From positions 1-39,417 of the forward strand of contig NZ_JANEZT010000011.1 in assembly GCF_025403405.1 (NCBI RefSeq): DNA of 39,417 nucleotides, written 5' to 3'. This DNA is from Frankia tisae. GTDB lineage: Bacteria > Actinomycetota > Actinomycetes > Frankiales > Frankiaceae. Each line of letters opens with the position of its first letter. Within the stretch, counting starts at the first letter, position 1. The position numbers and the translations under genes were made by a program. Below the pieces are notes generated by a model. The model had not been told where the DNA came from, did not search any database, and saw nothing but the letters and a program-made list of their open reading frames with translations. Positions 16,916-37,311 of the stretch are shown here, one piece after another.

Positions 16916-17761
16916 TCATCCCGGGACGGCGGGAGTCGGATCGGGCCGGTCGGCGCGCACCCGGTCCAGCAGCACCGCCAGCACCTGTTCGCCCGCGACC
17001 GCCCCCGCGCCGGCGGTGACGGTGACGTTCGGCGCCGACCAGCCGAGTTCGTGCAGCTCACCGTGGGCGGGCCGGACGGCGGCGTCGGCGGCCAGCAGCA
17101 TCGGGATGTCCAGGACCGAGTCGCCGGCGGCCAGCAGCGTCGCCGTCCCGGCCCGGCGGACCACCTCGTCGACGGCCCGCTGTTTGGTCAGCACCGTCGG
17201 CACCAGGTACACCTTGCGGCCCTGCGCCGACACCGACCAGCCGCCCGCGCGGGCGGCCGCGGTGACGCCGGCCAGGTCCGGGATGGCGGGCCGGTCGTGG
17301 GCGACGAGGTAGACGAACAGGTCGTCGGCGGCGCGGACCGTCCGGGCCCAGCCGCCGGCGGCGAACTGTTCGGCGAGCGCCAGCATCTCGGCCAGCGGCG
17401 CGCAGGCGGCGGCCACCTCCGCCGCGATCCCGGCCGCCCAGGCCGGGTCGGGGGCGCCGTCGACGAGCAGGTGCCCGCCGTTGGCCGCGATCGCGTACCG
17501 CGGCCGGATCCCGAGATCCACCCGGCGGTACTGGGCGAGCGTGCGGGTGGTGACGGGGACGACGACGGCCCGGCGGTGCAGCTCGGCCAGCAGCGCGAGC
17601 TCCCGAGCCGTCGCGAAGGACAGCGGGGCACCGTCGAGCCGCTCGACCTCGACCAGCTCGGGCTCGGCGGTGCCGGCCGGCAGCAGCATCGAGCGCCGGG
17701 AGAAGATCAGCGTCTTGTCCAGGTCGAGGGCCACCAGGTGGCCGCCCCTCCCCGCCGTCAC
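16916..17761 (-). CDS. HAD-superfamily phosphatase of the Ter-associated cassette
   Basis: This HAD hydrolase has 281 residues. Motif I is ALDLDKT with nucleophile D13 and acid D15; motif IV is GDSVLDIP near residue 220, and conserved lysine/threonine elements lie between. HAD phosphatases of this type are part of the Ter-associated cassette that comparative genomics predicts to make a nucleoside-like metabolite, where they would remove a phosphate. The GTG start at 17761 overlaps the stop of the upstream StiP-like gene in a GTGA, so translation is coupled. Function within the pathway is inferred from context, not from the sequence alone. Confidence 0.8.
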   Translation of the reverse strand: MTAGRGGHLVALDLDKTLIFSRRSMLLPAGTAEPELVEVERLDGAPLSFATARELALLAELHRRAVVVPVTTRTLAQYRRVDLGIRPRYAIAANGGHLLVDGAPDPAWAAGIAAEVAAACAPLAEMLALAEQFAAGGWARTVRAADDLFVYLVAHDRPAIPDLAGVTAAARAGGWSVSAQGRKVYLVPTVLTKQRAVDEVVRRAGTATLLAAGDSVLDIPMLLAADAAVRPAHGELHELGWSAPNVTVTAGAGAVAGEQVLAVLLDRVRADRPDPTPAVPG

Positions 17762-19035
17762 GAAGCGTCCGAGATGTCCGGGACACTTGGGACATCCTGA
17801 GCACCCGAGAAATCCTGAACACCCGGGAGATCCGGGAGATCCGGGAGATCCGGGACGTCCGGGCGCCAACGCGCGTTCGGCGTGTGGAACACCGGCGCCG
17901 CACCGACCGGGCGCACCAGCCCGACACACGAGAACGGCAGGTCGGTCATCTCCTCGACCGGGACGCCGCGGTCGGCGGCAAGCGCCAGGACGTGCCCCAG
18001 CTCGTCGACGCGGTCCGGGTCGACGAGGATGCGCCAAGGCACGCGGCGCAGCAGCACCCGGGTGGTCTCGCCGACCCCCGGCTTCACCATGATCACATCC
18101 GGGATGTCGTAGGCGGCGGCGATCCGCTCCACCGCCGCCCAGCCGGCCCAGGTCGGCCGCCGGTCGGCCCGCCACAGCCGCGGCCAGGTCTCGGCGACCT
18201 CGTCCGCGACCGCGTCGAACTGCGCGACAACCGTGGAGATGAAGTGCCGGGACAGGTCGTGCGGCGCGAGCTCGCCGTAGAACTTCGCGCCGTGGAAGTC
18301 GTCCGGGCCGATGTGCTCGGCGTTGAGGACGGTCCGGCTGACCAGCCCGCTGACCGTGGAGTTCAGGCAGGCGCTCGGGATGAGGAAGTCGTCGCGGGTG
18401 CCGTACAGCGGCACGCAGCGCGCCGGGTCGGCGAGCACGGCGAGGGTGTCGTCGAGCCCGAGGCCCGCGACCGCGTCGCTGAGCACCCGCGTCATCACCC
18501 CCTTGCCGGTCCAGCCGTCGACGAACTGCATCGCCCCGCGGTCGAACCGGTCGGTCAGGTAGCGCACGGCGTTCATGTCCATCCCGCGATCCTTGATCAC
18601 GGAAATGGCGTGGTGTGGGGTGTCCAGGCCGTGTCGCCAGCCGTACCAGCGGCGCATCAGGATCCCGACCGGCGTCCCGGCCCGGGCGATCGAGACCAGG
18701 ACCGGCTCGGGCTTCGAGACCCGCACGAGCTCGGCGACCACCCCCGTGGCCAGCGCCACCCGCCGGGCCGAGCGCTCCAGCGCCTGGTGGTAGAGACGCA
18801 GGTAGCCGGCGTCGGGCTGGTATTCGACGGGCAGATCCTCGGAGTAGTGCCGGCCGGCCTGCATCGCCTCCTCGCGGTCCTCGGTGGGCCGTTCGAGGTC
18901 GACGGCGCTCAGATCGGTGAGCAGGAAAGTCACGTCGGCCGGGTCGTACGAGCCCGAGCCAATCGTTCCCGCGGGCACCCGGTCGCCCGCCTGCCCGGCC
19001 ACCGGGGTCGCCGGCCCGGAACCGGAGGCGCTCAT
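17758..19035 (-). CDS. StiP-like (cysteine protease StiP family) protein of the Ter cassette
   Basis: This 425-residue protein matches, by my recognition, the family annotated as cysteine protease StiP, found next to PRTase and HAD genes in Ter operons. Characteristic stretches are GSYDPADVTFLL (about 27-38), HYSEDLP, SIARAGTPVG (about 110) and KDRGMDMNA; a conserved cysteine lies in SACLNSTVSG and another in LPFSCVGL. The enzymatic reaction is not established to my knowledge, and the protease label may be misleading. The ATG overlaps the PRTase stop (ATGA). The C-terminal about 50 residues are a proline/aspartate-rich repeat tail encoded by 9-base tandem repeats, which looks like a local extension rather than part of the fold. 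Confidence 0.75.
   Translation of the reverse strand: MSASGSGPATPVAGQAGDRVPAGTIGSGSYDPADVTFLLTDLSAVDLERPTEDREEAMQAGRHYSEDLPVEYQPDAGYLRLYHQALERSARRVALATGVVAELVRVSKPEPVLVSIARAGTPVGILMRRWYGWRHGLDTPHHAISVIKDRGMDMNAVRYLTDRFDRGAMQFVDGWTGKGVMTRVLSDAVAGLGLDDTLAVLADPARCVPLYGTRDDFLIPSACLNSTVSGLVSRTVLNAEHIGPDDFHGAKFYGELAPHDLSRHFISTVVAQFDAVADEVAETWPRLWRADRRPTWAGWAAVERIAAAYDIPDVIMVKPGVGETTRVLLRRVPWRILVDPDRVDELGHVLALAADRGVPVEEMTDLPFSCVGLVRPVGAAPVFHTPNARWRPDVPDLPDLPDLPGVQDFSGAQDVPSVPDISDAS
17825..17860. repeat. 9-base tandem repeat in the tail of the StiP-like gene
   Basis: GGGAGATCC occurs three times in tandem (17825-17851), followed by a diverged fourth unit GGGACGTCC. It encodes a D-L-P repeat at the C-terminus. 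More degenerate copies (GGGACATCC, GAAATCC) lie at about 17780-17824. Such in-frame repeats are prone to slippage and length variation. Confidence 0.8.
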
Positions 19036-20474
19036 CGGGCCCGCTCCGGCAGGGTCCGCTCCGGCAGGTCCAGCTCGGCGGCGGCGTCCGGTGGCGGTCC
19101 GGCGGGTCGGGGGGCTGGCCGGTAGGCGGGCAGGGTGAGCACGGCGACCGGGGCGCAGCGGCGCAGCTCGGCGACGAGCCCCGCCGGGTCCGCGACCGCG
19201 GCGGGCGAGGCTGCGTCCGCGCCCGCGTCGACGATCAGGACGATGTCGTCGTAGGCGCCGGGACGGACGTTGTAGACGTGGCTGACCCGGCTCGGGTCGT
19301 CCGGCGCCGGGAAGGTGAGCGCAGCCCGGATGGCGTAGCCCTCGACGTCGACGGGATGGACCGGCGAGCGGGTCGTCGACTGGTAACGGACCTTGCCGGA
19401 GCCGCCGGCGGCGAGCGTGTCCGCGATCCGCATCGGGGTGTACATCAGTTCCTCCGTCCCCAGAACGAGTGTGCAGCCGCCCGGTCGAGTCAGCGCCGCG
19501 CGCACGGCGGCGGCGACCGGCGCCAGGACGTCGTCGAGCCGGCGCCGGTGGGCCGGTGACCAGCCATACCGGCCACCTTCTGGAAGGTCCGCCGGCCAGT
19601 CGGCGGTCAGCCACCGAACCGGATGGCCGATCACAGCGGGTCGGGACTTCTCCGCAGGCGGCGACTTCTCGGCAGGCGGCTCGGCAGACGGCACGGACGC
19701 GGAGAAGCGGGCGCGGATACTCGCCGCCCGGTCGGCGATCTCGGCCGGCACCGTGACGGTGGCCGCGATCAGGGCGACGACGTCGATCCGGACGCCGAGT
19801 TCGGCGGCGAGGTCGGCGAACGCGGTGCGCGCGGCGGCCGGGCGGGCGTCGACGAGGGTCGCCACCACGTAGCGCGAGCGGGGGGCGTGAGCGTGCAGGA
19901 TACGGATGGTGCCGAGGGCGGTCCGTCCGGTGGACAGTTCGTCGTCGACCAGCACGATCGGCTCGCCGCCGCGCAGGATCGCCGGATCCTGTGGGACCAG
20001 CCAGTGGTGGGAGGCGTGCGAGTGCGACTCGGTGAACTCCAGCACCGGCGGCACCTCGGGCAGGTCCCGCCGAGTGGTGTGCAGGTAATGGCTGCCCGCC
20101 AGCCCGTCGGCGACGGCGTGGCCGAGCGCCGTCGCCGTCTCGCAGTAACCGATGACGAGCGGCCCTGTCCGGGCTTCGTCGCCGGCTTCGTCGCCGGCCC
20201 CGTCCCCGGTGGGGAAGCCGGGTAGGGCCCGGACCTGGGCCGCGAGATCCGCCCCGGCGGCCAGGCCCGCGCCTGGCGCGACCGGCAGGTGCTTGCCGAG
20301 CACCCGGCTGACCAGCAGGTGGGCCCGGCGTGGGTTGCGCCGCAGGGCCAACCCCACCAGCGCGTCCAGGCCACCGCCGCGCACGTCCGCGCTCACCTCG
20401 ACGGCGAGCCCCAGCTCCGCCCACAGCCAGCCCGGGTCCGCGGGCACCGGCGTCGTGGGCGTGGGCGTGGTCAT
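19032..20474 (-). CDS. Phosphoribosyltransferase with C-terminal TRSP domain (Ter cassette)
   Basis: The N-terminal half is a PRTase-like domain: the PRPP-binding loop VLVDDELSTGRT (about 173-185) is intact and is preceded by the hood-type region GYCETATALGH. The C-terminal half (about 290-460) fits the TRSP domain found fused to this PRTase family in Ter operons, with GRYGWSP, VLGTEELMYTPMRIA and YDDIVLIVD. A charged, proline-rich linker with a PPAEKS repeat (about 255-275) joins them. Total length is 480 residues. It is predicted to join a base-like compound to ribose phosphate. The ATG at 20474 overlaps the aldolase stop, and its own stop overlaps the StiP-like start. Confidence 0.8.
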   Translation of the reverse strand: MTTPTPTTPVPADPGWLWAELGLAVEVSADVRGGGLDALVGLALRRNPRRAHLLVSRVLGKHLPVAPGAGLAAGADLAAQVRALPGFPTGDGAGDEAGDEARTGPLVIGYCETATALGHAVADGLAGSHYLHTTRRDLPEVPPVLEFTESHSHASHHWLVPQDPAILRGGEPIVLVDDELSTGRTALGTIRILHAHAPRSRYVVATLVDARPAAARTAFADLAAELGVRIDVVALIAATVTVPAEIADRAASIRARFSASVPSAEPPAEKSPPAEKSRPAVIGHPVRWLTADWPADLPEGGRYGWSPAHRRRLDDVLAPVAAAVRAALTRPGGCTLVLGTEELMYTPMRIADTLAAGGSGKVRYQSTTRSPVHPVDVEGYAIRAALTFPAPDDPSRVSHVYNVRPGAYDDIVLIVDAGADAASPAAVADPAGLVAELRRCAPVAVLTLPAYRPAPRPAGPPPDAAAELDLPERTLPERAR

Positions 20475-21679
20475 CGGGCGATCTCCGCACGGCCGTGGCC
20501 GCGGGTCGCCGCGAGCACCTCGACGAAGGTGTCGCCCTCGCGTAGGACCCCGAACGCCCTGGCCCGGCGCAGCACCGCCTCGGCCCAGGCTCGGTGCGGG
20601 CGCAGCTCGTTCATCTTGTTCGCGTAGCTGCTCGCGCGGACCCCGCCGGCGTCCCCGGCGAGGATCGCCTCGGCGTCGGTGAACTCCTCCTGGCTGACGA
20701 CGTGCAGCGCGTGCACGGCCGGGATGTGGCTGGGATGGATCACAGTCTTGCCGATCAGCCCGTTGGCCCGGTCCAGGACGACCTCCCGGATCAGGCGGTC
20801 GAGGTCGGCCGAGACCAGTGCACTGCGCATCCGGATCGCCTCCTGGCTGCCGTCGGCCAGGTCGGCCTGCGCGAACGGGGTCACCCGCAGCGAGCTGACG
20901 AACAGCCGCTCCGGCTGGGCGAAGTACTCCCACACGGGGCCGGTGACGATGTGGTCACCGCCGCGGGCGCAGATGTTCACGATGTCGGCGATGCAGTCGC
21001 GGACCACGGCGATGTCGTAGATCGTCAGGTCACGGCCGCGGCGCAACCCGAACAGCCCGCACAGGTCGGTGGCACCGAGCCGGATCGCGAGCACCTGCTC
21101 GGCGTGCTTGTCGACCAGTCGCCGCACGGCCATGAGCGCCTCGACGCGGGTCTCCCGATTGATCACCGGGGGGCTTTCGAGCACCGGCATGGCCCACAGC
21201 GGCCGGCCGATGATGTCGGACACCCGCAGCACCGCCTCCAGCGCAGCCTCGCCGCCCTCCTCGGCGAACTTGGGCAGGACGAAGCCCGCCAGGCAGCGGG
21301 CGCCGGTCGCGCCGAGCCGCGCGATCAGGTCGGGGATCTGCCCGACGGCACGCACCCGGACGAACAGCAGCGGCATGCCGTCGCCGGAGCGCGGCGGGTC
21401 GTCGGCGAGCGAGCGCAACGCCGCGACGACGTTGGCCTCGGCGGCGGCCACCTCGGTGTCGGCGATCGAATCCTCGAGGCAGAGCACCATCGAGTTCGCC
21501 CCCGCCGCGGTCTGCCGGCGCACGTCGGATGCCAGCTGGGGCCGCGTGCCCGGTGCGTACAGCGTCGCACCGAGCGCGGTGGCCAGCAGCCGGCGATCCC
21601 CGTCGACGGCGATCTCCTCCGGCGGCCGGTAGAACAGGGTCTCGATCGTCTCCGTGTCGAGGAAGGCGAAGTGGCGCAA
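20471..21679 (-). CDS. HpcH/HpaI aldolase / citrate-lyase-beta-like protein (Ter cassette)
   Basis: This TIM-barrel protein of 402 residues belongs to the HpcH/HpaI aldolase-CitE superfamily. Signature pieces are GANSMVLCLEDSIADTEV with the metal-binding acidic residues, LFVRVR, AGFVLPK, PVLESP and KTVIHPSHI. In Ter-linked cassettes a member of this group is thought to provide a C-C bond step in metabolite synthesis. It starts with TTG (21679) behind GAGGGGA. It is the first gene of a four-gene operon in which all junctions overlap by four bases. An ATP-grasp gene often found with this cassette is not in the window. Confidence 0.8.
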   Translation of the reverse strand: MRHFAFLDTETIETLFYRPPEEIAVDGDRRLLATALGATLYAPGTRPQLASDVRRQTAAGANSMVLCLEDSIADTEVAAAEANVVAALRSLADDPPRSGDGMPLLFVRVRAVGQIPDLIARLGATGARCLAGFVLPKFAEEGGEAALEAVLRVSDIIGRPLWAMPVLESPPVINRETRVEALMAVRRLVDKHAEQVLAIRLGATDLCGLFGLRRGRDLTIYDIAVVRDCIADIVNICARGGDHIVTGPVWEYFAQPERLFVSSLRVTPFAQADLADGSQEAIRMRSALVSADLDRLIREVVLDRANGLIGKTVIHPSHIPAVHALHVVSQEEFTDAEAILAGDAGGVRASSYANKMNELRPHRAWAEAVLRRARAFGVLREGDTFVEVLAATRGHGRAEIAR

Positions 21680-25392: not shown

Positions 25393-25394
25393 TC
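25355..25394. repeat. 14-base tandem repeat after the FN3 protein stop codon
   Basis: ATCTAGTCGAACGG (25355-25368) is followed by ATCTAGCCGAACGG (25369-25382) and a partial third unit ATCGAGTCGATC. It lies against the 3' end of the FN3/zinc-ribbon gene. The units are not inverted, so they do not form a terminator; the role is unknown. Confidence 0.7.
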
Positions 25395-28300
25395 AGCGAA
25401 CGACCAGATCCTCGTCGTCCGGATGCGTGACCGTCCAGCCGGTGGGATGCACCAGGACCGGCAACAGCCGGACACCCCACGGCAGCTGCGCCCCGTCCAG
25501 GGTGACGTCGATGGTGCGGGTGACAGCCTGATCGACGGCGGCCAGCCGGGACAGCTCATGGGCCTCGGCGGCCGCCCGCGGCGGCGTTGTGCCCGGCCGC
25601 GCGAACAGGATCAGTTCGCCGGCCGGGCCGGAGGTATGCACCTGGACCCGCATGGTCCGCCGCCGCCACCCGGAGCGGCTCACGGTGTAGGTGACCGTCG
25701 GCTGGATCAGCGGGACGGGATGCGGCGCAGGCGGCATCGGCCCGGTCAGCGCATCGTCGGCCCCGCCCCCCTGGGCATCGGGCGCGGTCGGGATCGGGGT
25801 CGGGGTCGGGATCGGGATCGGGGTCGGTGCCGCGCCCCCGGGAACGACCGGGCCGGGTGCACCGGGCACGAACCGCGCCTGCCACGCCTGCCACGCCTGC
25901 GCCGGGTCGCCCGCGACCGGTTCGCCGGCACCTGCCGGCGGGAGCAGGGGCACCGGCAGGACACCGAACGGGTTCGTGGGTGGGTGCTCCCCATGCGCGG
26001 GCCCCCGGGCACCGCCCGGCGGGTGGCCTGCCACCGGTTGGCGGGCGCCGACCGGCACGGGCAGCGGGAGGGCGCTGGTCCGCGGCTGGGCCGGGCCTCC
26101 CAGCGGATGCGCGGCGGTGATCGGATCCGAGCCGGACGCATCGGGCCCGGCGGCGGGCCGCCCCGCGAACGGACCACCGGGGATGCCTTCGGGCCCGCCC
26201 CCCGGTCCGCCGACGAGGTGACCACCGGTGGCGGGCCCGGACGCGGTGGGGGGCGGCGGATCGCTGCGGGTCGCGGGCCGGGCCAGCACCGCCACTCCGG
26301 CGGTCGCGACGCGGGCGATCCCGCCCGCCCGGTACATCGGGTAGGCGGCCACGTGGTAGGCCCACCCGTCCGCCGGGGCGGCGAGATGCCAGCCGCCCTT
26401 GATCTCCAAGCTGGTGTTGGTGACCTTGGCCCTGGCGGCATAGGGATCGTCCGGGCCGGTGGGCGTGCGGTCCCGCCGCCAGAGCACCCGCGCCTCGGTC
26501 ACCCCGGGTGGCATCTGGAAGGACAGCACGATCGACTCGCCGCGGTCGTCGGCGCGCAGGTCGCGCACGGGCTCGATCACCACATGTCGCACGGCCCGGC
26601 CGACGACAGCCGTCTCGCCCTGCACCGTCACCGGGGTGTAGATCACCTCGCCGACCGGAGCGGACTCCGCGGCCTGTCCCGTGCGGCTCGTGCCAACCAG
26701 GCGGACCGGTCCGGTGATGGCGGCGAGCTGGACGTCGTCGCCCTCGGCGCCGAGCCCGCCGACGAACAGCGGGCCGGAACCACGCAGCGGCAGCGGACCC
26801 GAGCCGGCGCCGGGCAACGGTAACGGACCCGAACCCGGCCCGAATCGCGGCCCGGTGCCTCCCGGCCCGCCGCCGACGCCGCCGACGCCCCCGGGGCCGG
26901 CGGGCGCCGGCGTCGCGTAGATCCGCACCTCCCAGCCGGGCGGCGGCGTCCAGCGCAGCGTGGTGCGCCCGCTGGTGGTGACCGCGGCGAGATCCTGCAC
27001 CGGCCTCGGGCGGGCGGTCACTTCGACCTCGGCCTCGGCGCCGGGCGTGCGGACGGGGTGCCCGGCCGCGTCGTGGTACTCGACGAAGACGTGGTAGCGG
27101 TACGTCGCGCCGACGACGACGTCCGTGTCGTGGAAGACCCCGCCGGTGACCCGGGCCCGCCGGGGTGGCTGGCTGACCGGCGAGCCGGGTGCGGCGGTCC
27201 GCTCGACCGTGACCACCGACAGGGCCCCGTCGAGCTGCCAGTGCAGCCGGATCCCGGCGGCGGTCCGCTCGGCGCGCAGCTCGGCGAGGTCACGGGTGCA
27301 GACCACGGGCTGCGTGGCGACCGGCTCGGAGCGGCGCTCGCCGCAGATCGCGGTGACCTCGTGGCGCACCGGCGTCCACGCCGGTGCGCCGGCGTCGTAG
27401 AGCTCGGTGGACCGGGTGGTGCCCAGGCTGCGCCGGCCCAGCGTCGCCGCGGCGCCCTCGACGAGCACGACGCGCTCCACCCGGTAGGAGACGGGCCCAC
27501 CGACCGACGGCGACGCCCGCCAGCGCAGCTGTACCGAGCCGTCGGGGCCGGCGACCGCGGCGAGGTCCGACGGCGACGACAGCGGCAGCGCCGCCAACGC
27601 CGCCAACGCCTCCCGGTTGTCCGCGGCGGTGGCGAGGACCGCGGCCAGGGCAGCCTCCTGGGCCTCGCGTGGCAGCGCCCGCGCGGCCTCCACCCGCCGG
27701 CGGATCACCGCCTGGGCGGCGATGAGCTCGGCCAGCACCTCGGCCGGGCCGCGGCCGTCCGGGCCGGGCACGTCCGCTGCCTGCGCGGCGAGCCAGCGAG
27801 CGTCGTCGAGGGCGGCGTCGGCCCGGCTGGCCGCGCGGGCCTCGGACAGGGCCCGCCAGCCGGCGTCGGCCGCGCCGAGCGCCGCGGAGACCCGGGCGCC
27901 GAGCTCCTCAGCGGCGCCGGCGACCGGACCGCCGACGGCGACCAGCACCGGATGCGCGGCGGCGAGCAGGTCGCCTGCCTCGCGGGGCCGCCCGCCCTCC
28001 AGCGCGCGGCGCACGGCGGCCAGTGCCTCCGCCGCCTCCCGAGCCTGGCGCAGGCTGTGCCCGCAGTGTCGGCAGACCACCGCGGCGGCCTCGGTCATCG
28101 AGCCGCAGGACGGGCAGGTCGCGTAGAGATCGGTGTCGCAGTACCGGCAGTGCCGGGCGGCGCCGGCCGCCTCCGGGCGCCCGCAACCGGGGCAGACGAC
28201 GTAGTCGACGACCCCGCCGACGTTGACCGCGGCGCCGAGCGTGCGCGCCACCCCGAGAACCACGGACTTCGCCTGCGCCGCGGTGAGACCGCGCCCGGTG

Positions 28301-29184
28301 GCCAGCGCCGCGCGGACGAGACCTTCGAAGGCGACGGCGGTGAGCTCGCCGTCGAGGACGACGTGTTCCTCCACCGCGGGACGCAGCTCGTCGGCCGCGT
28401 CCGCCATCAGGCCGACCGTGTAGGCGGCCGGGTCGCCCTCGACGAGCCGGGTCGAGACGAGGGCCAGCAGGTCGGCGGTGACCGTCTTCTCCCGGTCGTG
28501 CGGACGGCGGCTGTTGGCAGCCGCCACCGCGGCGTAGGCGGCGGCGAGCCGCTGCGGCGAGGCGTCGGGGGCGAGCCCGAGGAACGCCCACAGCGACGCG
28601 CTGGAGACCCGGTCCCCGCCACGCAGGGCGCGCAGTTCGGTGAGCCGCTCGGCGATCTGGCGGCGAACCTCGGGCGGCAGTGGCTCCACCCCACCGCCGA
28701 CGCCGTCCACGATGATCTGCTCCCGGCTGAGCCGGGCGTCGAACTCCTCGACGGTCACCCCGGCGGCGGCGGCAAGCCGGCGCAGTCCGTCGACGCGGGA
28801 GGCGGGAATGCCGCCGAAGCGATCCCGGACGGTGGCGAGGTAGCCGTCGACCTTGGCCAGCCGCTCCGCGTCACCGCTGCGCCGGGCGGCGAGGACGTGG
28901 GCGCGGACCCGCTCGCGGGACTCGGCGTCGCGCAGCGGCTCCTCCCACTCCCCGCGGCGGCGTACCAGCTCGGTGGCGAGCGTGGCGTACTTGGCCGAGT
29001 TGCGCTCCCGCTGCAGGAAGGCGAGGACCCGGACAAGATGGGCCCCGATGTCGGAGTCGGTGTACGGGACGGTGGGGTCGAGGCCGGCGATGAGAAAAGG
29101 GTCGGCGGTGTCCAGGGAGGAGCCCGCCCGCAGCGGTGCAAGCACCCGCTGGCGGTAGCCGCTGCCATCGAACGCCGCGCTCAA
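25393..29184 (-). CDS. Giant double-zinc-ribbon / FN3-repeat protein with J-domain-like segment (Ter-chaperone cluster)
   Basis: The protein has about 1263 residues and no confident family name. In order it shows: a helical N-terminal region (about 1-165); a segment at about 170-230 laid out like a J-domain (WAFLGLAPDASPQRLAAAYAAVA, then a loop with RRPHD, then a helix); a helical region; two zinc ribbons at about 330-375 (CPGC, CRYC, CPSC, CRHC); a long helical array; about four or five FN3-like beta domains (about 540-1000); a Gly/Pro-rich low-complexity stretch with IPIPTPTP repeats; and a C-terminal beta domain. There is no signal peptide or membrane segment, so it is cytosolic. I chose TTG 29184 because AAGGTGG lies just upstream. 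It shares strand and neighbourhood with the Hsp70, GrpE-like and TerD genes, which suggests a scaffold or co-chaperone role. Confidence 0.65.
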   Translation of the reverse strand: MSAAFDGSGYRQRVLAPLRAGSSLDTADPFLIAGLDPTVPYTDSDIGAHLVRVLAFLQRERNSAKYATLATELVRRRGEWEEPLRDAESRERVRAHVLAARRSGDAERLAKVDGYLATVRDRFGGIPASRVDGLRRLAAAAGVTVEEFDARLSREQIIVDGVGGGVEPLPPEVRRQIAERLTELRALRGGDRVSSASLWAFLGLAPDASPQRLAAAYAAVAAANSRRPHDREKTVTADLLALVSTRLVEGDPAAYTVGLMADAADELRPAVEEHVVLDGELTAVAFEGLVRAALATGRGLTAAQAKSVVLGVARTLGAAVNVGGVVDYVVCPGCGRPEAAGAARHCRYCDTDLYATCPSCGSMTEAAAVVCRHCGHSLRQAREAAEALAAVRRALEGGRPREAGDLLAAAHPVLVAVGGPVAGAAEELGARVSAALGAADAGWRALSEARAASRADAALDDARWLAAQAADVPGPDGRGPAEVLAELIAAQAVIRRRVEAARALPREAQEAALAAVLATAADNREALAALAALPLSSPSDLAAVAGPDGSVQLRWRASPSVGGPVSYRVERVVLVEGAAATLGRRSLGTTRSTELYDAGAPAWTPVRHEVTAICGERRSEPVATQPVVCTRDLAELRAERTAAGIRLHWQLDGALSVVTVERTAAPGSPVSQPPRRARVTGGVFHDTDVVVGATYRYHVFVEYHDAAGHPVRTPGAEAEVEVTARPRPVQDLAAVTTSGRTTLRWTPPPGWEVRIYATPAPAGPGGVGGVGGGPGGTGPRFGPGSGPLPLPGAGSGPLPLRGSGPLFVGGLGAEGDDVQLAAITGPVRLVGTSRTGQAAESAPVGEVIYTPVTVQGETAVVGRAVRHVVIEPVRDLRADDRGESIVLSFQMPPGVTEARVLWRRDRTPTGPDDPYAARAKVTNTSLEIKGGWHLAAPADGWAYHVAAYPMYRAGGIARVATAGVAVLARPATRSDPPPPTASGPATGGHLVGGPGGGPEGIPGGPFAGRPAAGPDASGSDPITAAHPLGGPAQPRTSALPLPVPVGARQPVAGHPPGGARGPAHGEHPPTNPFGVLPVPLLPPAGAGEPVAGDPAQAWQAWQARFVPGAPGPVVPGGAAPTPIPIPTPTPIPTAPDAQGGGADDALTGPMPPAPHPVPLIQPTVTYTVSRSGWRRRTMRVQVHTSGPAGELILFARPGTTPPRAAAEAHELSRLAAVDQAVTRTIDVTLDGAQLPWGVRLLPVLVHPTGWTVTHPDDEDLVVR

Positions 29185-29261
29185 GGATCCACCTTCGTCC
29201 CACGTGACCGCCGTGCCCGTCGAACAGACCGGCAACCGGCCCGTCTTCGGGCGCCGAACGC

Positions 29262-29282
29262 GGGGCGGCAGTTTACCGCCCC
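29262..29282 (-). promoter_or_regulatory. Inverted repeat upstream of the FN3/zinc-ribbon gene
   Basis: GGGGCGG (29262-29268) and CCGCCCC (29276-29282) are a perfect inverted repeat with a 7-base AT-rich centre (CAGTTTA), about 78 bases before the TTG start. A 12-base direct repeat, GCCCCACATCCG, overlaps and follows it (29278-29289 and 29294-29305, period 16). The cluster looks like an operator region, but the regulator is unknown. Confidence 0.45.
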
Positions 29283-29356
29283 ACATCCGGCAGGCCCCAC
29301 ATCCGAGAGTACGAAGCGGCGCCCCGCCCCGGGTCCCGGACGCCGCAGACGCCCAG

Positions 29357-29376
29357 CCTGATCCTTGTGGATCAGG
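29357..29376. promoter_or_regulatory. Perfect hairpin between the Hsp70 and FN3 genes
   Basis: CCTGATCC (29357-29364) and GGATCAGG (29369-29376) form a perfect 8-bp stem with the loop TTGT. It lies about 180 bases downstream of the Hsp70 stop and about 170 upstream of the FN3 protein start, so it could end the Hsp70 transcript or bind a regulator. The remaining intergenic bases (29185-29557) contain no gene I can support. Confidence 0.45.
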
Positions 29377-29557
29377 GGCCGGTATCACCGTCTGGCGGCG
29401 ATTCCCGACCCTGGCCGTGCGTCCCGGCTGACCCTACCGACTACAGGGCCGACACCCGGAAGCGCCTGCGTACGTGGGAAATTGGCAGCTCATAACACTT
29501 CTCGAGCGGGTTTTTCCTGGGCCGTGGGAGAAGTCCCTGGTCGCGGGATCGACCGGC

Positions 29558-31228
29558 TCAGTCCCGCTGCTTGAGCAAGCTGACCTTCGCCGACTCGATC
29601 GCGCGCATCTCCTCCGAACCAACCCCGGCACGCACCTGAAGGACCAGTGCGGTGGCGGCACCCTCGTGCGCCGCGGTAACCCGAATTGTCTGGTCCCCCG
29701 CCATCGAGAAGGTGACCTCGACCGGCGTGCCGCGCTGGTGACCCGGCGGAATCCCGGAGATTGCCCCGGCGACGATCACCTTGTTGTCGTCGATCTCCGT
29801 GGACTCGGCGGTCGTGCCCTGCTCGAAGACCCGGATGTCGACCTCGGCCTGATCGTCGGTCACGGTGTAGAAGGTGCGGGTGACCGAGATCGGCAGCGCG
29901 TCGTTCTGGTGAGCGAGGAAGGCCGCGACCGGCACGCCGCGGTCCTCCGCGAAGATCCCGAAGCCGCGCGAGGTGACGTTCGTGACCTTGGTGCGGACGA
30001 GGTCGACCACCGACGCGGTCGCGAGCCCCGCGGCGCCGGCGCTGGCCGCCGCCGCCTTCTCCACCGCGGCGTCGTCGGCCGCGGTGAGGTCCTGATCGGG
30101 CCGCAGTGCCCCGCTGGCCACCAGATCCGAGTGGACCTCGCGTTCGAGCGCCTTCTTCTGCCCGTACACCGCGGCGCCCTTGGCCACCGCCAGGTCCGGG
30201 TCGACGAGCCGGGACGTGAGCCCGAAGGACTCCCCCAGCCGGCGGCCGACCGCCGGGGTCTTGCTCATGCCGCCGACCAGCAGGCACAGGTCGATCTTCT
30301 CGACGCCCTTCTCCCGGGCCCGTTCCAGCACGGACCCGGTCAGATCCAGGGTGCGTCGCAACAGCGGCCCGGTGATCTCCTCGAACGTCGCCCGGGTCAC
30401 CGGCACGCTCACCCGCCTGCCCTTGTGCACGACGAGGACATCGACGCTGTCCCGCCCGGACAGCGCGAGCTTGGCGTCCTCGGCCGCGGTGAGCAGCTCC
30501 TGCTCGTCGTAGACGTCGTCGAGGGGGTCGCCCGCGTCGGGCTGCGCCTCGGTGAACTTCTGCGCCAGGTAGCGGACGAGCTCGTTGTCCCAGTCCGCAC
30601 CGCCGAGCTCATGGTCACCATCGGTGGCCACCACGGTGATCGCGCCCTCGCTGAGCCGGATGACCGTGGTGTCGAACGTGCCGCCGCCGAGGTCATAGAC
30701 CAGGACGGTCGACTCCTCCGCGCCGTCCTGGCCGAAACCGTAGGCGAACGCGGCCGCCGTCGGCTCGTTGATGATGTCGACCACGTTCAGCCCGGCCAGC
30801 TCACCGGCAAGCTTGGTGGCCTTGCGCTCCTCGTCGCCGAAGTACGCCGGCACGGTGATGACCGCGTCCGTGACCGGGATGCCGGTCGCCCGCTCGGCGT
30901 CGGCGGCGAGCGCCTTGAGCACGAGGCTCGACACCGCCGAGGCGCTGTACTCCACGTCGTGCGCGACGAAACGCCAGTCGGACGCGCCCATGTGCCGCTT
31001 GACCAGCCGCGCGACGTCGTCGGGGCGGATGCGGGCCTGCCGCTTGGCCTGGGTGCCCACCACGAAGGACGTGGTGCCCTCGCCACCGCCGTCGAACAGC
31101 ACGACCGACGGCGTCGTGGGCTGCGACTCGATGTTGCGGATCACGTCCGGCCGGCCGTACTCGTCGACCTGGGCGATGCAGGAGTAGGTCGTGCCCAGGT
31201 CGATCCCGAACACCTTGGTACCCGCCAC
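29558..31228 (-). CDS. Short Hsp70-family chaperone without C-terminal lid
   Basis: This is a DnaK-like protein of 556 residues. The ATPase domain is complete, with the phosphate-1 loop GIDLGTTYS (8-16), INEPTAAAFAYG, the phosphate-2 motif VYDLGGGTFD and the adenosine motif LLVGGMSKTPAV. A beta-type substrate-binding domain follows (to about 540, GVGSEEMRAIESAKVSLLKQRD region at the end), but the helical lid and disordered tail of housekeeping DnaK are missing. An unusual alanine-rich insert (about 395-425) replaces the normal interdomain linker region. GTG 31228 is the chosen start; GTG 31252 is possible. It lies 52 bases after the GrpE-like gene, in one presumed operon with the TerD-family gene. 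It is most likely a specialised, not general, Hsp70. Confidence 0.85.
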   Translation of the reverse strand: MAGTKVFGIDLGTTYSCIAQVDEYGRPDVIRNIESQPTTPSVVLFDGGGEGTTSFVVGTQAKRQARIRPDDVARLVKRHMGASDWRFVAHDVEYSASAVSSLVLKALAADAERATGIPVTDAVITVPAYFGDEERKATKLAGELAGLNVVDIINEPTAAAFAYGFGQDGAEESTVLVYDLGGGTFDTTVIRLSEGAITVVATDGDHELGGADWDNELVRYLAQKFTEAQPDAGDPLDDVYDEQELLTAAEDAKLALSGRDSVDVLVVHKGRRVSVPVTRATFEEITGPLLRRTLDLTGSVLERAREKGVEKIDLCLLVGGMSKTPAVGRRLGESFGLTSRLVDPDLAVAKGAAVYGQKKALEREVHSDLVASGALRPDQDLTAADDAAVEKAAAASAGAAGLATASVVDLVRTKVTNVTSRGFGIFAEDRGVPVAAFLAHQNDALPISVTRTFYTVTDDQAEVDIRVFEQGTTAESTEIDDNKVIVAGAISGIPPGHQRGTPVEVTFSMAGDQTIRVTAAHEGAATALVLQVRAGVGSEEMRAIESAKVSLLKQRD

Positions 31229-31280
31229 CGTCTGAACTCTTCCCTTCGCCACTCTCGTCAGCGTTCGCCGCCACCGCGAC

Positions 31281-33572
31281 TCAGCGCGACCGGTAGACCT
31301 CGGTCTCCGCGGGCCGGACGACGGTCGTCTCACCGCGGACGAAGCCGGGGCGCACGGTGCGGGCGATGGTCCCGTCCCGTCCCGGATCGTCCGTGGCCAC
31401 CCGCCGCAGACCCAGATGCCGCGCCGGGTCGAAGGTCCCGCCCGGTACCGCCGTGTAAGGCCGCACGTCCACGGCCAGGTCCAGCACCTGGAGCAGCTGC
31501 TTGCGCAGGATGCCGGCGACGCTTTGCGGATCGTCCGCCCCCAGGCTACCCATCTGATCGTGCAGCCGGATCAGGCCCCGCAGCAGCGGCGCCATCGCCT
31601 CGGTGAGCTCACCGGCGCGCAGCCGGCTGTTCTCCGCGTGCAGCCGGTCCACCAGCTCCGCGTCGTGGCGGCGCAGCCGGGCGAGCTCGTCGAGCTGGCT
31701 GGCGAGGCGCTCGATTGCCACCGCCTGGATCGCGCCGATCGACCCGGCCAGACCGCCGTCCCCCACCGGCCCGGGCCGTTCGGCGGCCTCGTCGCGGCCG
31801 GCGTGCTGGCCACGACCGTCTTCGCCCCCCCGACCGGCGCCCCGGTCGACTGCCACCGCCAACACCTCGTCCACATCGTCGTCGGGGCCGGAAACGGGCG
31901 AGCCCACCGGCCCGCCAAGGTGATCCGGGCCGCTGGGATGGGACGGGCCACCGCGGCAGCCCGAATCCGCCGGATCGCCTACGGCGTCGTATGTCGCGAG
32001 GGCATCGTCCGGGGGCAGGACGTCCTCGCTGCCGGCCCTGGCGTCCTCCCGCCGGCCGCCGGGCTCGGGAAGGTCGTCTCGGGGATACCCGGGGTACGGG
32101 TCGTCCCCGGGGCTCGGGCCTGAGGTGGCGTTCCCGCCCTCGTCCCGCTCAGCGGCACCGGAATACCCGCCGGGTGCAGGCGGGGTGCCAGTCGCCGGCG
32201 GTACCGCGAAACCGGCCGCTCGCAGCGCCTCGTCGTCGACGCCGAGCGCGGTCGTCTCGACCGCGTCGGACCTCCACGCCTCGGTTGCCGGCCCAGCGCC
32301 GCCCGCCGGCCCGGCGAGATCGGCGTACCGTCCGGACTCCGCCACCATCTGGTCGTCGGACTGCACTTCGTGCGGGTACTCGCCCGAGCTGTCGCGCTCC
32401 CCCGGCGCGAGCAGGTCCGGATAGTCCAGGCGGCGGGAGTGCTCAAGTTCCTGCGGGTACGGGCGCCGGCCGCCGTCGAACCGCGGGCCGCCCGGGTCCG
32501 ACTCGGCGTCCAGGTCGACACCCCCCGCCCATGCCTGCTCGACACGGCCGGGGTGGTCTGGATCCGCGAGGTCGGCCTCGTGGGCGAGGTCTTCCTGATT
32601 CGCGGCATCCGCCTGACGCCCGGGATCGGCCTGGTAGGCGGGGTCGGCCTGGTAGGCGGGGTCCGCTGCAGCGTGGTGGACGGATTCGGCCAGGTGCTGG
32701 GGGGCAGCGGCGTAATGCCGCGCGGCAGGCGGGTAACGCTCATCGAGGTAGCCGTCCGCCGGCTCGTCAGGCCAGCGCCGGCCGTCGTAACCGTCGGCGC
32801 CGAGCGCCACATCGACGGCATCCGTACTCGTCGCCGCGCCGCCGAGGTCGTCCGCTGTGGAGCCGGGGGCGTCATCAGAATGGCGGGGGCCGTCGACGGC
32901 GTGGGGGTCCAGGGCACCGGGGCGATCGCGCCCCGCGCGCACGTACGGGTCGAGCGGCGGGGCCGAGCCGAGCGCAGGCACCCCGAATCCGCGCACTCCT
33001 GTTGGCACGGACTCGTCCCAGTGGGTGCCGGGCCCGGGAGTCGCCCCCCCGCCAGCCTCCTGGGACCCGCCGGAGCGGTGGGTGCGCTCGGGCGGGGCGA
33101 AATAGTCCCCCGGGCCTCGGCCGGCCGGCCCCTGGTTCCAGCCACGAAGAAGGTCGTCGCGCAGGGGCCCGGCGTCCCGCTCCGACCGCTCGAAAGCTGT
33201 CTGGTCCGGCACAGCCCGGTCCGGCACAGCCCCGTCCTGGGTGGAACGATTCAGTCCTCGCCACGGCGAGTAACCGTCGGTGCCGTATGGCTCCAACCCA
33301 TCCCGCGCCCCCCGCGGGTCCCGTCCCGGGTCGCCGGTGGCCGACAGCGGATCCGGCTCCAACGGGTCGGGCACCAACGGGTCGGGCACCAACGGGTCGG
33401 GCACCAACAGATCCGGATCCGAGGGATCGGGAGCCTCCTCGCCCGGTGGGCCGGAGCGCGCCCCGCCGGGCGGGAACCAGCTTCCCCGGCCGCGGGGCGC
33501 GGGATCGCGGCGTGGCTGGAACATCGGGTATCGATCCTCCTCGCCGCCGGGCGGCGGGACCGGGGGGGTCAT
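31281..33572 (-). CDS. GrpE-like nucleotide exchange factor with long disordered N-terminus
   Basis: The last about 150 residues resemble GrpE. A coiled-coil helix (ERLASQLDELARLRRHDAEL) leads into a helical bundle (MAPLLRGLIRLHDQMGSL), and a beta-wing follows (FDPARHLGLRRV, then GTIARTVRPGFVRGETTVVRP), in the same order as canonical GrpE. GrpE exchanges ADP for ATP on Hsp70, and the next gene is an Hsp70. The first about 600 residues are acidic, Pro/Gly/Asp-rich, lack any fold signature and contain several tandem repeats (DPLVP, DPAYQA, AVPD), which is very unlike the about 200-residue housekeeping GrpE. ATG 33572 is used here; ATG 33524 has a better ribosome-binding site (AGGAGG, 11 bases away). 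It follows the TerD-family gene by 19 bases. Confidence 0.75.
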   Translation of the reverse strand: MTPPVPPPGGEEDRYPMFQPRRDPAPRGRGSWFPPGGARSGPPGEEAPDPSDPDLLVPDPLVPDPLVPDPLEPDPLSATGDPGRDPRGARDGLEPYGTDGYSPWRGLNRSTQDGAVPDRAVPDQTAFERSERDAGPLRDDLLRGWNQGPAGRGPGDYFAPPERTHRSGGSQEAGGGATPGPGTHWDESVPTGVRGFGVPALGSAPPLDPYVRAGRDRPGALDPHAVDGPRHSDDAPGSTADDLGGAATSTDAVDVALGADGYDGRRWPDEPADGYLDERYPPAARHYAAAPQHLAESVHHAAADPAYQADPAYQADPGRQADAANQEDLAHEADLADPDHPGRVEQAWAGGVDLDAESDPGGPRFDGGRRPYPQELEHSRRLDYPDLLAPGERDSSGEYPHEVQSDDQMVAESGRYADLAGPAGGAGPATEAWRSDAVETTALGVDDEALRAAGFAVPPATGTPPAPGGYSGAAERDEGGNATSGPSPGDDPYPGYPRDDLPEPGGRREDARAGSEDVLPPDDALATYDAVGDPADSGCRGGPSHPSGPDHLGGPVGSPVSGPDDDVDEVLAVAVDRGAGRGGEDGRGQHAGRDEAAERPGPVGDGGLAGSIGAIQAVAIERLASQLDELARLRRHDAELVDRLHAENSRLRAGELTEAMAPLLRGLIRLHDQMGSLGADDPQSVAGILRKQLLQVLDLAVDVRPYTAVPGGTFDPARHLGLRRVATDDPGRDGTIARTVRPGFVRGETTVVRPAETEVYRSR
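33360..33404. repeat. 15-base tandem repeat in the GrpE-like gene
   Basis: CAACGGGTCGGGCAC is repeated three times in tandem, with a diverged fourth unit, and encodes a D-P-L-V-P repeat on the minus strand. Other tandem repeats in the same disordered region are an 18-base unit at about 32627-32662 (DPAYQA) and a 15-base unit at about 33205-33240 (AVPD). All keep the reading frame. Confidence 0.85.
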
Positions 33573-34479: not shown

Positions 34480-35679
34480 TTACAGCGGCGTGCTCACCGC
34501 CTCGCGCGGCTGGCCCTGACCACCCTCGCCCTCGTCGTCCCTGATCGGGCCGGCGGAGTCGTCGGAGTCCGCATCGGCGTGCCGGCGGCGGTGCAGGATG
34601 GACGACACGAGCGCCACGCCGATGAAGGCCACTCCCACCAGTCCGGTGACGATCTCCGGGACCTCGGTCTCGATCGAGATGGCGAGGATGATCGCCAGCG
34701 CGCCGATGGCGTAGTGCGCGCCGTGTTCGAGGTAGATGTACTCGGACAGGGTGCCCCGGCGGACGAGGTACACGGTCAGCGACCGGATGTACATCGCGCC
34801 GATGCCCAGGCCGGTGGCGATGACGAAGATGTTCTGGGAGATCGCGAATGCGCCGACGACGCCGTCGAACGAGAACGACGCGTCGATGACCTCCAGGTAG
34901 AGGAACAGGAAGGCGGCCGCCTTGCCGGTGGCGAGCACCAGCTTCGGGGGTCCGGAGGAGCGCGGGGTGCCGGCCGACTTCCCGGCGTCCCCGGCGGCCT
35001 CGGCGTCGGCGCTGTCGTCGGCGTCGTCGTCCTCCTCGGCGCCGACCCCGCGCGCCTCGAAGAACTCCCCGAGGCCACGCACCCCGAGGTAGGTGGCCAG
35101 GCCGGCGACGCCCGCGGTCAGCACCTGCTGGGTGTTGTCACCGGCGAACGCCTCGCCCACGACGAGCAGCGCGACGAGGCCGATCACGGTCGGGATCACG
35201 TCGAGCTGGCCGGCGCGCCGCAGCGGCTCCTCCAGCTTCTTGATCCACTGAACCTCCCGCTCGGTGTCGAACAGGAAGTCCAGGAACAGCATGAACAGGA
35301 AGATCCCGCCGAACGCGGCGATCGCCGGGTGCGCGTCACCGAGCTTCTCCGCGTACTGCGCGCTGTCGTTGAGCGCCAGGTCGAAGACCTTGACCGGACC
35401 GATATGCGCGGTCAGCGCCACGATGATGATCGGGAAGAGCAGCCGCATGCCGAACACGGCGATGACGACGCCCAGCGTCAGGAAGAGCTTCTGCCAGAAC
35501 GGGTTCATCCGGCGCAGGATCGTCGCGTTGATGACCGCGTTGTCGAAGGAGAGGCTGATCTCGAGCACGGCGAGGATGGCCACGATGGCCGCATCCCGCG
35601 GGCTGCCGATCACCCCCGCTCCAACCACCCCGATCGCGGTGATCGCCAACGACCACCCGAAGATCCGCAAGGCGTGCAC
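34480..35679 (-). CDS. DUF475 / TerC-superfamily integral membrane protein
   Basis: This is a multi-pass membrane protein of 399 residues of the DUF475 group in the TerC/LysE-like superfamily. It has about seven to nine hydrophobic segments. The motifs LEISLSFDNAVINA (about 40-53) and EVIDASFSFDGVVGAF (about 265-280) hold the intramembrane aspartates typical of TerC, repeated in both halves. The central loop (about 210-243) is strongly acidic and probably cytosolic; it might bind metal ions. The tail is hydrophilic. I chose GTG 35679 (MHALRIFGWSL) with AAGGTG upstream; the frame is open to 35829, but that extension is low-complexity. TerC-type proteins export or sense metal ions; here it lies between two TerD genes, the classical Ter arrangement. 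Confidence 0.85.
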   Translation of the reverse strand: MHALRIFGWSLAITAIGVVGAGVIGSPRDAAIVAILAVLEISLSFDNAVINATILRRMNPFWQKLFLTLGVVIAVFGMRLLFPIIIVALTAHIGPVKVFDLALNDSAQYAEKLGDAHPAIAAFGGIFLFMLFLDFLFDTEREVQWIKKLEEPLRRAGQLDVIPTVIGLVALLVVGEAFAGDNTQQVLTAGVAGLATYLGVRGLGEFFEARGVGAEEDDDADDSADAEAAGDAGKSAGTPRSSGPPKLVLATGKAAAFLFLYLEVIDASFSFDGVVGAFAISQNIFVIATGLGIGAMYIRSLTVYLVRRGTLSEYIYLEHGAHYAIGALAIILAISIETEVPEIVTGLVGVAFIGVALVSSILHRRRHADADSDDSAGPIRDDEGEGGQGQPREAVSTPL

Positions 35680-36065
35680 GCCTATCAACACCTTCCCGGA
35701 CCGATCGCCAGACCCCGGTCGCGCCGCGCGGGCGGATCCGCGGTCCGTCGGATCCCGCCACGTCGCCTGAACTCGCCGGAGACCGCGTCGGCCCGCGGCC
35801 GGTTGGCCCGGAGCGGCGGTCGACGGCATCGTAGCTGCTCATCCGGTGGGCGCGACCTGACAAATGGGTTACACCGAATACGCACGCCCCTACCCGCGCA
35901 CTACCTCCACACACGCCAGGTGATGGGGCACGTTGCGTGGCCGCCGGTCGTCCCGGGCCGGCGGACGGGCGCCTGCGGAGTGGCCGGAGCCGGTCGCGGG
36001 ACCAGCCCCGGCCATCCGGTCGCCGGGCATGCTGCCCGGCGTGGTGCGCAGTGATGCGGACCGGG
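35680..36065. other. Intergenic region between terD and the DUF475 gene
   Basis: No gene is supported. It contains the terminator-like hairpin at 36022-36040 and the presumed promoter of the DUF475 gene. A TACGAT box (about 35829-35834 on the minus strand) is the best -10 candidate, but it lacks a well-placed -35 box. Confidence 0.4.
36022..36040 (-). terminator. Terminator hairpin after terD
   Basis: GCCGGGCA (36022-36029) and TGCCCGGC (36033-36040) form a perfect 8-bp stem with a 3-base loop, 25 bases after the terD stop. There is no T-run. It probably ends a monocistronic terD transcript. Confidence 0.6.
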
Positions 36066-36641
36066 TCAGACGTTGACGCCGAAGTCGCGGGCGATGCCGG
36101 CCAGGCCCGAGGCGTAGCCCTGGCCGACGGCGCGGAACTTCCAGTCCGCCCCGTGCCGGTAGACCTCGCCAAAGACCATGGCCGTCTCGGTGGAGGCGTC
36201 CTCGGTGAGGTCGTAGCGGGCGATCTCGGTGCCGCCGGCGCCGTTGACGATGCGGATGAAGGCGTTGCGGACCTGACCGAAGTTCTGCTGGCGTGAGTCC
36301 GCGTCGTAGATGGAGACCGGAAACACGATCTTGTCGATCTCCGTGGGCAGCGACGTGAGGTTCACGGAGATGGCCTCGTCGTCGCCCTCGCCCTCGCCGG
36401 TGAGGTTGTCGCCCTGGTGCTCGATCGCGCCCTCGGGGCTCTTGAGGTTGTTGAAGAAGACGAAGTGCCCGTCCGAGACGACCTTGCCGTCGGCACGGCA
36501 CGCGATGGCGCTGGCGTCGAGGTCGAAGTCGGCGCCGGTCGTGCTGCGCACGTCCCAGCCGAGGCCGACCACGATGTTGGTCAGGCCGGGCGCCTCCTTG
36601 GACAGCGACACGTTGCCGCCCTTGCTGAGACTGACTCCCAC
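36066..36641 (-). CDS. terD: TerD family tellurium-resistance / stress protein
   Basis: This canonical TerD protein has 191 residues. It starts [20 protein letters not shown], followed by the conserved strand IVVGLGWD. Acidic Ca2+-binding loops follow ([10 protein letters not shown], about 36-45; [15 protein letters not shown], about 83-97), then INKIVFP-like and [18 protein letters not shown] segments. TerD binds calcium and is proposed to form a membrane-linked complex with TerC and TerB in stress or metal responses. GTG 36641 is the start, chosen because AGGAGG lies four bases upstream. It stands upstream of the DUF475 gene on the same strand, separated by a terminator and nearly 390 bases. 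Confidence 0.95.
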
Positions 36642-37311
36642 TGTTCCTCCTGCTGTACGTCGACTGCGTTGTCTGGGGGCCACCACGCGGGGCGGCGGCC
36701 GCTGTACGGGAGCGCGGTACGCCCCCGGGTGACCCCGGTACCCCGGCGACCGGGCGCCGGCAGCCTACTGTCCGGCGCGAACGGCACGGTCACTCTCCGC
36801 CCGCGAAGCCACGTGCCGGGGTACGTGTTGCTCTGCGGGACGAACGAGTCACGCGCGAGGTTCCCACCGGCGGTCCACCCGTGACCGCGGCATCCCACCT
36901 GTCCGGGTCGCGCCCCCAGGTCGCGCTCCCCAGGACCCGGCCCCGACCCGCCATGACTCGATCGGGCGGTCACTTCACCCGCCGGTAACGCGGGTGGAAC
37001 ATGAACCATCCGGTCACCCAACGCATCATCAACAATGGGCGGGCCCACCAAACCCGCGCATGACCCGCCACTGTCACCGGTACGGCAGCGAAAGTGCACG
37101 CCGGACGGCACAACAGACGAGGTTCGGACGTTCGTGGGCGCCGCAACTGGGGAACATCGGCTCCGGCGGAACCATCCGGACGGGGCCGGCGGACCCACCC
37201 CAACGCCAACAATCACCCATCCGGAGGCCGCAGGCAGTTCACGCAGAGGTGTCGCTATTCGCCACGTGCAGGGCGGACCATTGAGGTGTGGTTCGTCTGG
37301 ATAAGGTCGCC
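36642..37311. other. Divergent intergenic region between terD and glgE
   Basis: This 670-base region between the divergent genes terD and glgE contains no gene I can support; the short frames present lack ribosome-binding sites and family features. It must hold both promoters. The only structured element I see is the inverted repeat at 36976-36996. Confidence 0.5.
36976..36996. promoter_or_regulatory. Inverted repeat in the terD-glgE intergenic region
   Basis: CACCCGC (36976-36982) and GCGGGTG (36990-36996) form a perfect 7-bp inverted repeat around CGGTAAC, 335 bases from terD and 315 from glgE. It could be an operator or a structural element; its target gene is unclear. Confidence 0.35.

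Follow-up and report, generated by a model that had tools for sequence, protein, structure and literature searches.

Organization of the locus

The window, that is, the whole stretch of 39,417 nucleotides of Frankia tisae DNA that was analysed, carries a gene for a giant J-like protein, an Hsp70 gene directly upstream of it and a GrpE-like gene that precedes the Hsp70 gene in this lineage, all on the minus strand. Ter-type stress genes (StiP-PELOTA, TerC/DUF475 and TerD) flank the operon. The genes, and the regions of the giant J-like protein that follow its J-like segments, are as follows.

17758..20490, minus strand: StiP-PELOTA gene (Pfam)
25393..29184, minus strand: giant J-like protein gene, ~1263 aa (open reading frame with an inferred start)
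26900..27579, minus strand: FN3-like region, approximate (weak Pfam fn3 match, E 0.38)
28054..28194, minus strand: double zinc ribbon (Pfam DZR, E 1.9e-5, under the curated cut-off)
29558..31333, minus strand: partner Hsp70, NBD and SBD-beta without a lid (Pfam HSP70, 1.3e-98; start codon uncertain)
30776..30778, minus strand: Asp codon at the DnaK R167 position (VVDIINEP)
31281..33572, minus strand: GrpE-like gene, with a GrpE-type C-terminal domain at 31284-31778
34480..35829, minus strand: TerC/DUF475 gene (Pfam)
36066..36686, minus strand: TerD gene (Pfam, 1.4e-84)

The J-like segment SASLWAFLGLAPDASPQRLAAAYAAVAAANSRRPHD is found on the minus strand within the open reading frame 25393-29388. 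The start codon is probably the TTG at 29184, because the orthologues have an (M)SAAFDGSGYR start in common. This start places the segment at residues 169-230, as in the numbering of the earlier sequence-only reading. The parts of the protein are arranged in the order J1-like segment, middle helical region, J2, zinc ribbon, FN3-like region and proline-rich tail, and the closest named relative, from Frankia gtarii, is 99% identical across the N-terminal region. The fn3 match is stronger in a homologue (L224:4804-7635) than in the window protein. A highly conserved motif, RFGGxPxxxxxGLRxLA, lies between J1 and J2 (28700-28860, minus strand, residues ~121-137).

The product of the GrpE-like gene is long and of low complexity, with a GrpE-type end. 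Pfam GrpE matches 12 of its 18 orthologues (best E 1.1e-6), and alignment of the domain with GrpE from the same genome by hhalign gave a probability of 97; a profile of the domain searched against the PDB returned weak helical matches only. Linkage to TerC was seen in 5 of the 12 loci outside the Frankiaceae, including Geodermatophilus and Pseudonocardia-type loci, some of the 12 being too short to reveal linkage. The literature searches made found no work on Ter genes with Hsp70. Most Frankiaceae have a second copy of the Hsp70/J-like pair. One such pair (G000:C35:50-4047, L225) has RPDR and HPRY loops, adjoins dapB and an M16 peptidase gene, and has no adjacent GrpE-like gene.

Fold and loop of the J-like segments

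The sequence-only reading had described a J-domain-like layout at 28495-28680, with RRPHD in place of HPD; J1, the GrpE-like gene, the GAP1-type relatives and the Ter setting do not figure in that finding. The features of this segment (J2), and of a possible second one (J1), are given below.

28351..28599, minus strand: J2 J-like domain, helices I-IV, model residues 195-277 (AlphaFold2, Foldseek/VIA, hhalign and PDB profile)
28579..28593, minus strand: J2 helix I, model residues 197-201, within SLWAFLGL (DSSP on the model)
28510..28557, minus strand: J2 helix II, model residues 209-224 (DSSP on the model)
28495..28509, minus strand: J2 loop RRPHD at the HPD position, followed by Arg230
28441..28494, minus strand: J2 helix III, model residues 230-247 (DSSP on the model)
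28351..28431, minus strand: J2 helix IV, model residues 251-277 (AlphaFold2)
28876..29112, minus strand: J1, possible second J-like fold, model residues 24-102 (DPFLIAGLD ... RNSAKY; VIA-align alone)
28987..29004, minus strand: J1 loop RNSAKY (RDHP[KR]Y in sister lineages)

In the AlphaFold2 model, helices I-IV of J2 have pLDDT values above 90, and the RRPHD loop sits between helices II and III. A model of J2 alone reproduces the helices, with pLDDT 93-97 over helices I-III. The interval proposed from the sequence takes in helices I and II and the loop, whereas helices III and IV lie just outside it. Comparison of the J2 family profile with an alignment of J-domains made from actinobacterial DnaJ gave hhalign scores of 35-37 (probability 90-92), compared with at most 17 in 60 column shuffles and at most 15 for other segments of the giant J-like protein. 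Since these scores are far above the shuffles and the segment is conserved with identical spacing in 73 family members, the likeness is not a chance match. The full N-terminal profile, searched against the PDB, gave 11 weak matches, 8 of which are J-domain proteins aligned at the same place and in the same register. When 394 genomes were searched in six frames with the family profile, three canonical HPD J-proteins of Frankia, orthologous to one another, were retrieved over helices I-II (E 6e-4 to 1e-3).

Fold searches agree with the predicted helix II/III hairpin. J-domains rank first among 350,542 chains searched by Foldseek: of the top 29 matches almost every one is a J-domain, with probabilities of 0.92-1.00 for the first 22, and the best E-value is 0.095. 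Structural comparisons by VIA gave Z 8.3 (rmsd 2.9 over 86) with 4wb7 and Z 7.0 (rmsd 2.1 Å over 60 residues) with E. coli DnaJ taken from its complex with DnaK (5nro_B). Such modest E-values and Z scores are what 90 helical residues would be expected to give, and the strength of the evidence lies in the concordance between the methods. Sequence profiles, the AlphaFold2 model and the fold searches together indicate that J2 is very probably a genuine J-fold, so the J-domain layout read from the sequence is borne out.

J2 resembles canonical DnaJ (PF00226) in the layout of helices I-IV, with helix I predicted to pack on the antiparallel II/III hairpin, and in the LGV..DAS motif. However, it lacks HPD, its helix II is ~3-5 residues longer ahead of the loop, the stretch from the motif to helix III is shorter, and the domain lies below Pfam detection. 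Pfam DnaJ gave no call on the window protein at E up to 5 or on the family members at E up to 10, and single-sequence searches of the window protein against Pfam, NCBIfam and the PDB did not call DnaJ. PP2A HEAT matches from the PDB single-sequence search were set aside as weak helical matches.

RRPHD is indeed present on the minus strand, and none of the 73 family members has HPD in this loop. Position 227, which by register corresponds to the His of HPD, is occupied by R, P, A or G, in no case by His; position 228 is P in 43 members and H in 27, position 229 is Asp in 69 and position 230 is Arg in all 73; Arg226 is present in most. The constant part of the loop is D229-R230 rather than a histidine. 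Across the wider family the pattern is x-P-D-R. PHDR belongs to the window's lineage, and sister lineages have RPD or PPD at the same site, by which alignment the PHD is derived and not a rearranged HPD. The idea of a scrambled but functional HPD was thus ruled out, the His not being conserved. The strong conservation of the loop does not agree with the "degenerate" J-domain that was offered earlier as one of two options.

For J1, VIA-align fits J-domains to residues 24-102, superposing 71-72 residues at rmsd 2.8-3.0 with Z 6.6-6.7. No profile support for J1 as a J-domain emerged from hhalign, run in several modes and with four alignments, so a J-like fold is put at even odds here; helical hairpins, moreover, match readily. 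Internal duplication of J1 and J2 was also considered and is unsupported, with hhalign scores of 11.6-17.6 at shuffle level. The J1 loop reads R[NSG]SA[KR]Y in the window's lineage and RDHP[KR]Y in sister lineages; position 64 is K or R and position 65 is Y in all 73 members, placing a basic residue where HPD has its Asp. A divergent family member (L230, G032:C54) has KKTY in the J1 loop and has lost a recognisable J2 helix I.

The partner Hsp70 at the Arg167 position

The Hsp70 encoded next to the giant J-like protein is lidless, as had been noted from the sequence, and PDB alignments of it end after SBD-beta. An Hsp70 gene lies immediately upstream on the same strand in 56 of 56 family loci, which span Frankiaceae (including the second copies), Geodermatophilaceae, Pseudonocardia and Nocardioides. 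An ORF antisense to the Hsp70 gene (29474-31606, plus strand) matches Pfam NAD-GH (PF10712), probably a spurious overlapping-frame family.

In ordinary Hsp70 machines the contact between the HPD aspartate (D35) and Arg167 is called invariant and central, the trigger of the system (PMC7289447, PMC13012618). The residue equivalent to R167 in the linked Hsp70s is Asp in 53 of 55 (22/22 and 31/33) and Gly in the other two, and in none is it Arg. All 25 DnaK-type proteins compared, namely the DnaK of the window genome and 24 of 24 from 20 other genomes, have Arg there. The 20 genomes were picked for yielding no member of the giant J-like family; among more distant Hsp70-like proteins the residue varies. 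The catalytic NBD residues (equivalents of D10, K70, E171, T199 and D201) are invariant in the 55 linked Hsp70s, and the linker is also altered. Judged from these alignments, both ends of the HPD-Arg167 contact are changed within one gene pair, which is the main result, and the loss of R167 lends direct support to the earlier suggestion that the J-like protein is an altered partner for an unusual Hsp70. The R167D change may be a single old event; because it may have arisen once, its association with basic loops is not statistically independent and is no covariation test.

Proposed mechanism and related systems

The favoured reading, with a probability of roughly 0.66, is that the giant protein is an HPD-less J-like co-chaperone dedicated to its own lidless Hsp70, docking through a charge-altered J-site, with the GrpE-like protein as exchange factor and third member of the module. 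J2 would be a J-fold without HPD in a large co-chaperone for the Hsp70 encoded directly upstream. An ordinary J-protein pulls on Arg167 of its Hsp70 through the HPD aspartate, and in this module neither side of the contact is the usual one. The Hsp70 would offer Asp (rarely Gly) at 167, and the J loops would offer the basic Arg230 and usually Arg226 of J2 and Lys/Arg64 of J1. Docking through this electrostatically altered site, with one or other J loop presumably facing Asp167 and a possible effect on the ATPase, would separate the module from the housekeeping DnaK/DnaJ, and the zinc ribbon and FN3 parts could provide binding to a target (client or partner). As helix II is longer than in DnaJ, the loop may fall short of position 167. 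The Ter linkage suggests a role in stress. A more specific version, in which the pair is orthogonal and the HPD-Asp/Arg167 switch is charge-inverted (Asp167 against HP(K/R) in J1 and R-x-x-D-R in J2), the contact still triggering ATP hydrolysis, is doubtful.

The strongest rival to the favoured reading shares the docking and denies the stimulation. The protein would be a docking-only type IV J-like subunit of the Pam16/Magmas kind, binding or orienting the Hsp70 or the other J-like domain without stimulating ATP hydrolysis, and the R167D Hsp70 would run without J-stimulation because, with R167 substituted, the intramolecular latch normally opened by HPD is gone. HPD is missing throughout the family, Pam16/Magmas with DKS in place of HPD does not stimulate (PMC8605242), R167 substitutions raise basal activity somewhat and render DnaJ stimulation ineffective (PMC7289447), and the altered linker of the linked Hsp70s points the same way. 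However, the loop shows strong conservation instead of drift, and its invariant basic residues would be unneeded for docking away from the site. This explanation is a serious one, held at somewhat less than even odds. The giant J-like protein is like Pam16/Magmas in having a predicted J-fold with HPD replaced, alongside an Hsp70 system, but it is bacterial, its J-like domains (possibly two in tandem) lie within one large FN3 protein, its loop is R-x-x-D-R, and its partner Hsp70 is also changed at R167.

A degenerate relic, in which the J-fold is a structural spacer in a scaffold without contact to Hsp70, would account for the lost HPD and for the unrecognisable helix I part of J2 in GAP1-type relatives, but it is unlikely given the adjacency to Hsp70 at every one of the 56 loci and the invariant loop residues. 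A convergent helical hairpin would explain the silence of Pfam DnaJ and the best Foldseek E-value, helical folds matching readily, but is very improbable against an independent sequence-profile signal in J-domain register and the dominance of J-domains in the fold search. Equally improbable is action in trans on the housekeeping DnaK rather than on the neighbouring Hsp70: the genome does encode a canonical DnaK and four J-proteins above the DnaJ cut-off, but the HPD that R167 of DnaK needs is missing, and it is the R167D Hsp70 whose gene is tightly paired with that of the J-like protein.

On the favoured reading of a dedicated co-chaperone, the best-known switch of Hsp70 biology appears to be rewired on both sides at once, a contact called invariant in Hsp70 machines being changed at both ends in one family. 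The tight gene pair across several actinobacterial families would serve as a naturally occurring experiment on J-domain triggering of Hsp70 and perhaps as an orthogonal chaperone pair; it would also connect a poorly understood conflict-system module with a Ter stress cluster.

Among the themes of GAP1-N2 GTPase conflict systems, Kaur et al. 2020 (PMC7159879) describe the joint occurrence of HSP70, GrpE and an FNIII protein that carries a DnaJ or TPR fusion. The window trio of HSP70, GrpE and an FN3 protein with a DnaJ-like N-terminal part resembles this DO-GTPase theme, the FN3 call being weak, but the window locus lies in a Ter cluster. The passages of that article that were consulted make no mention of HPD loss or R167 loss, and the literature searches made found nothing on GAP1-N2 with DnaJ beyond it. 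No GAP1 or GTPase gene turned up among those window ORFs and paralogue neighbours that were scanned with Pfam. The same genome carries, at G000:C699 (L224:1823-11397), an operon of a GrpE-like gene, a lidless Hsp70, a J1-like FN3 homologue and GAP1-N2-M-C (PF20013, PF20014, PF20052); its Hsp70 is 45% identical to the partner Hsp70 and has Asn at 167. Arg167 is lost in all the GAP1-type Hsp70s examined: Asn167 occurs with Thr (Arg in one) in the J1 loop, and Asp167 with Ser/Ala/Thr next to Arg. The J1-loop pairing is loose, and strict charge covariation between J1 position 64 and Hsp70 position 167, tested on these loci, was rejected. In the GAP1-type relatives helix I of J2 can no longer be recognised, whereas the window J2 retains a clear helix I motif.
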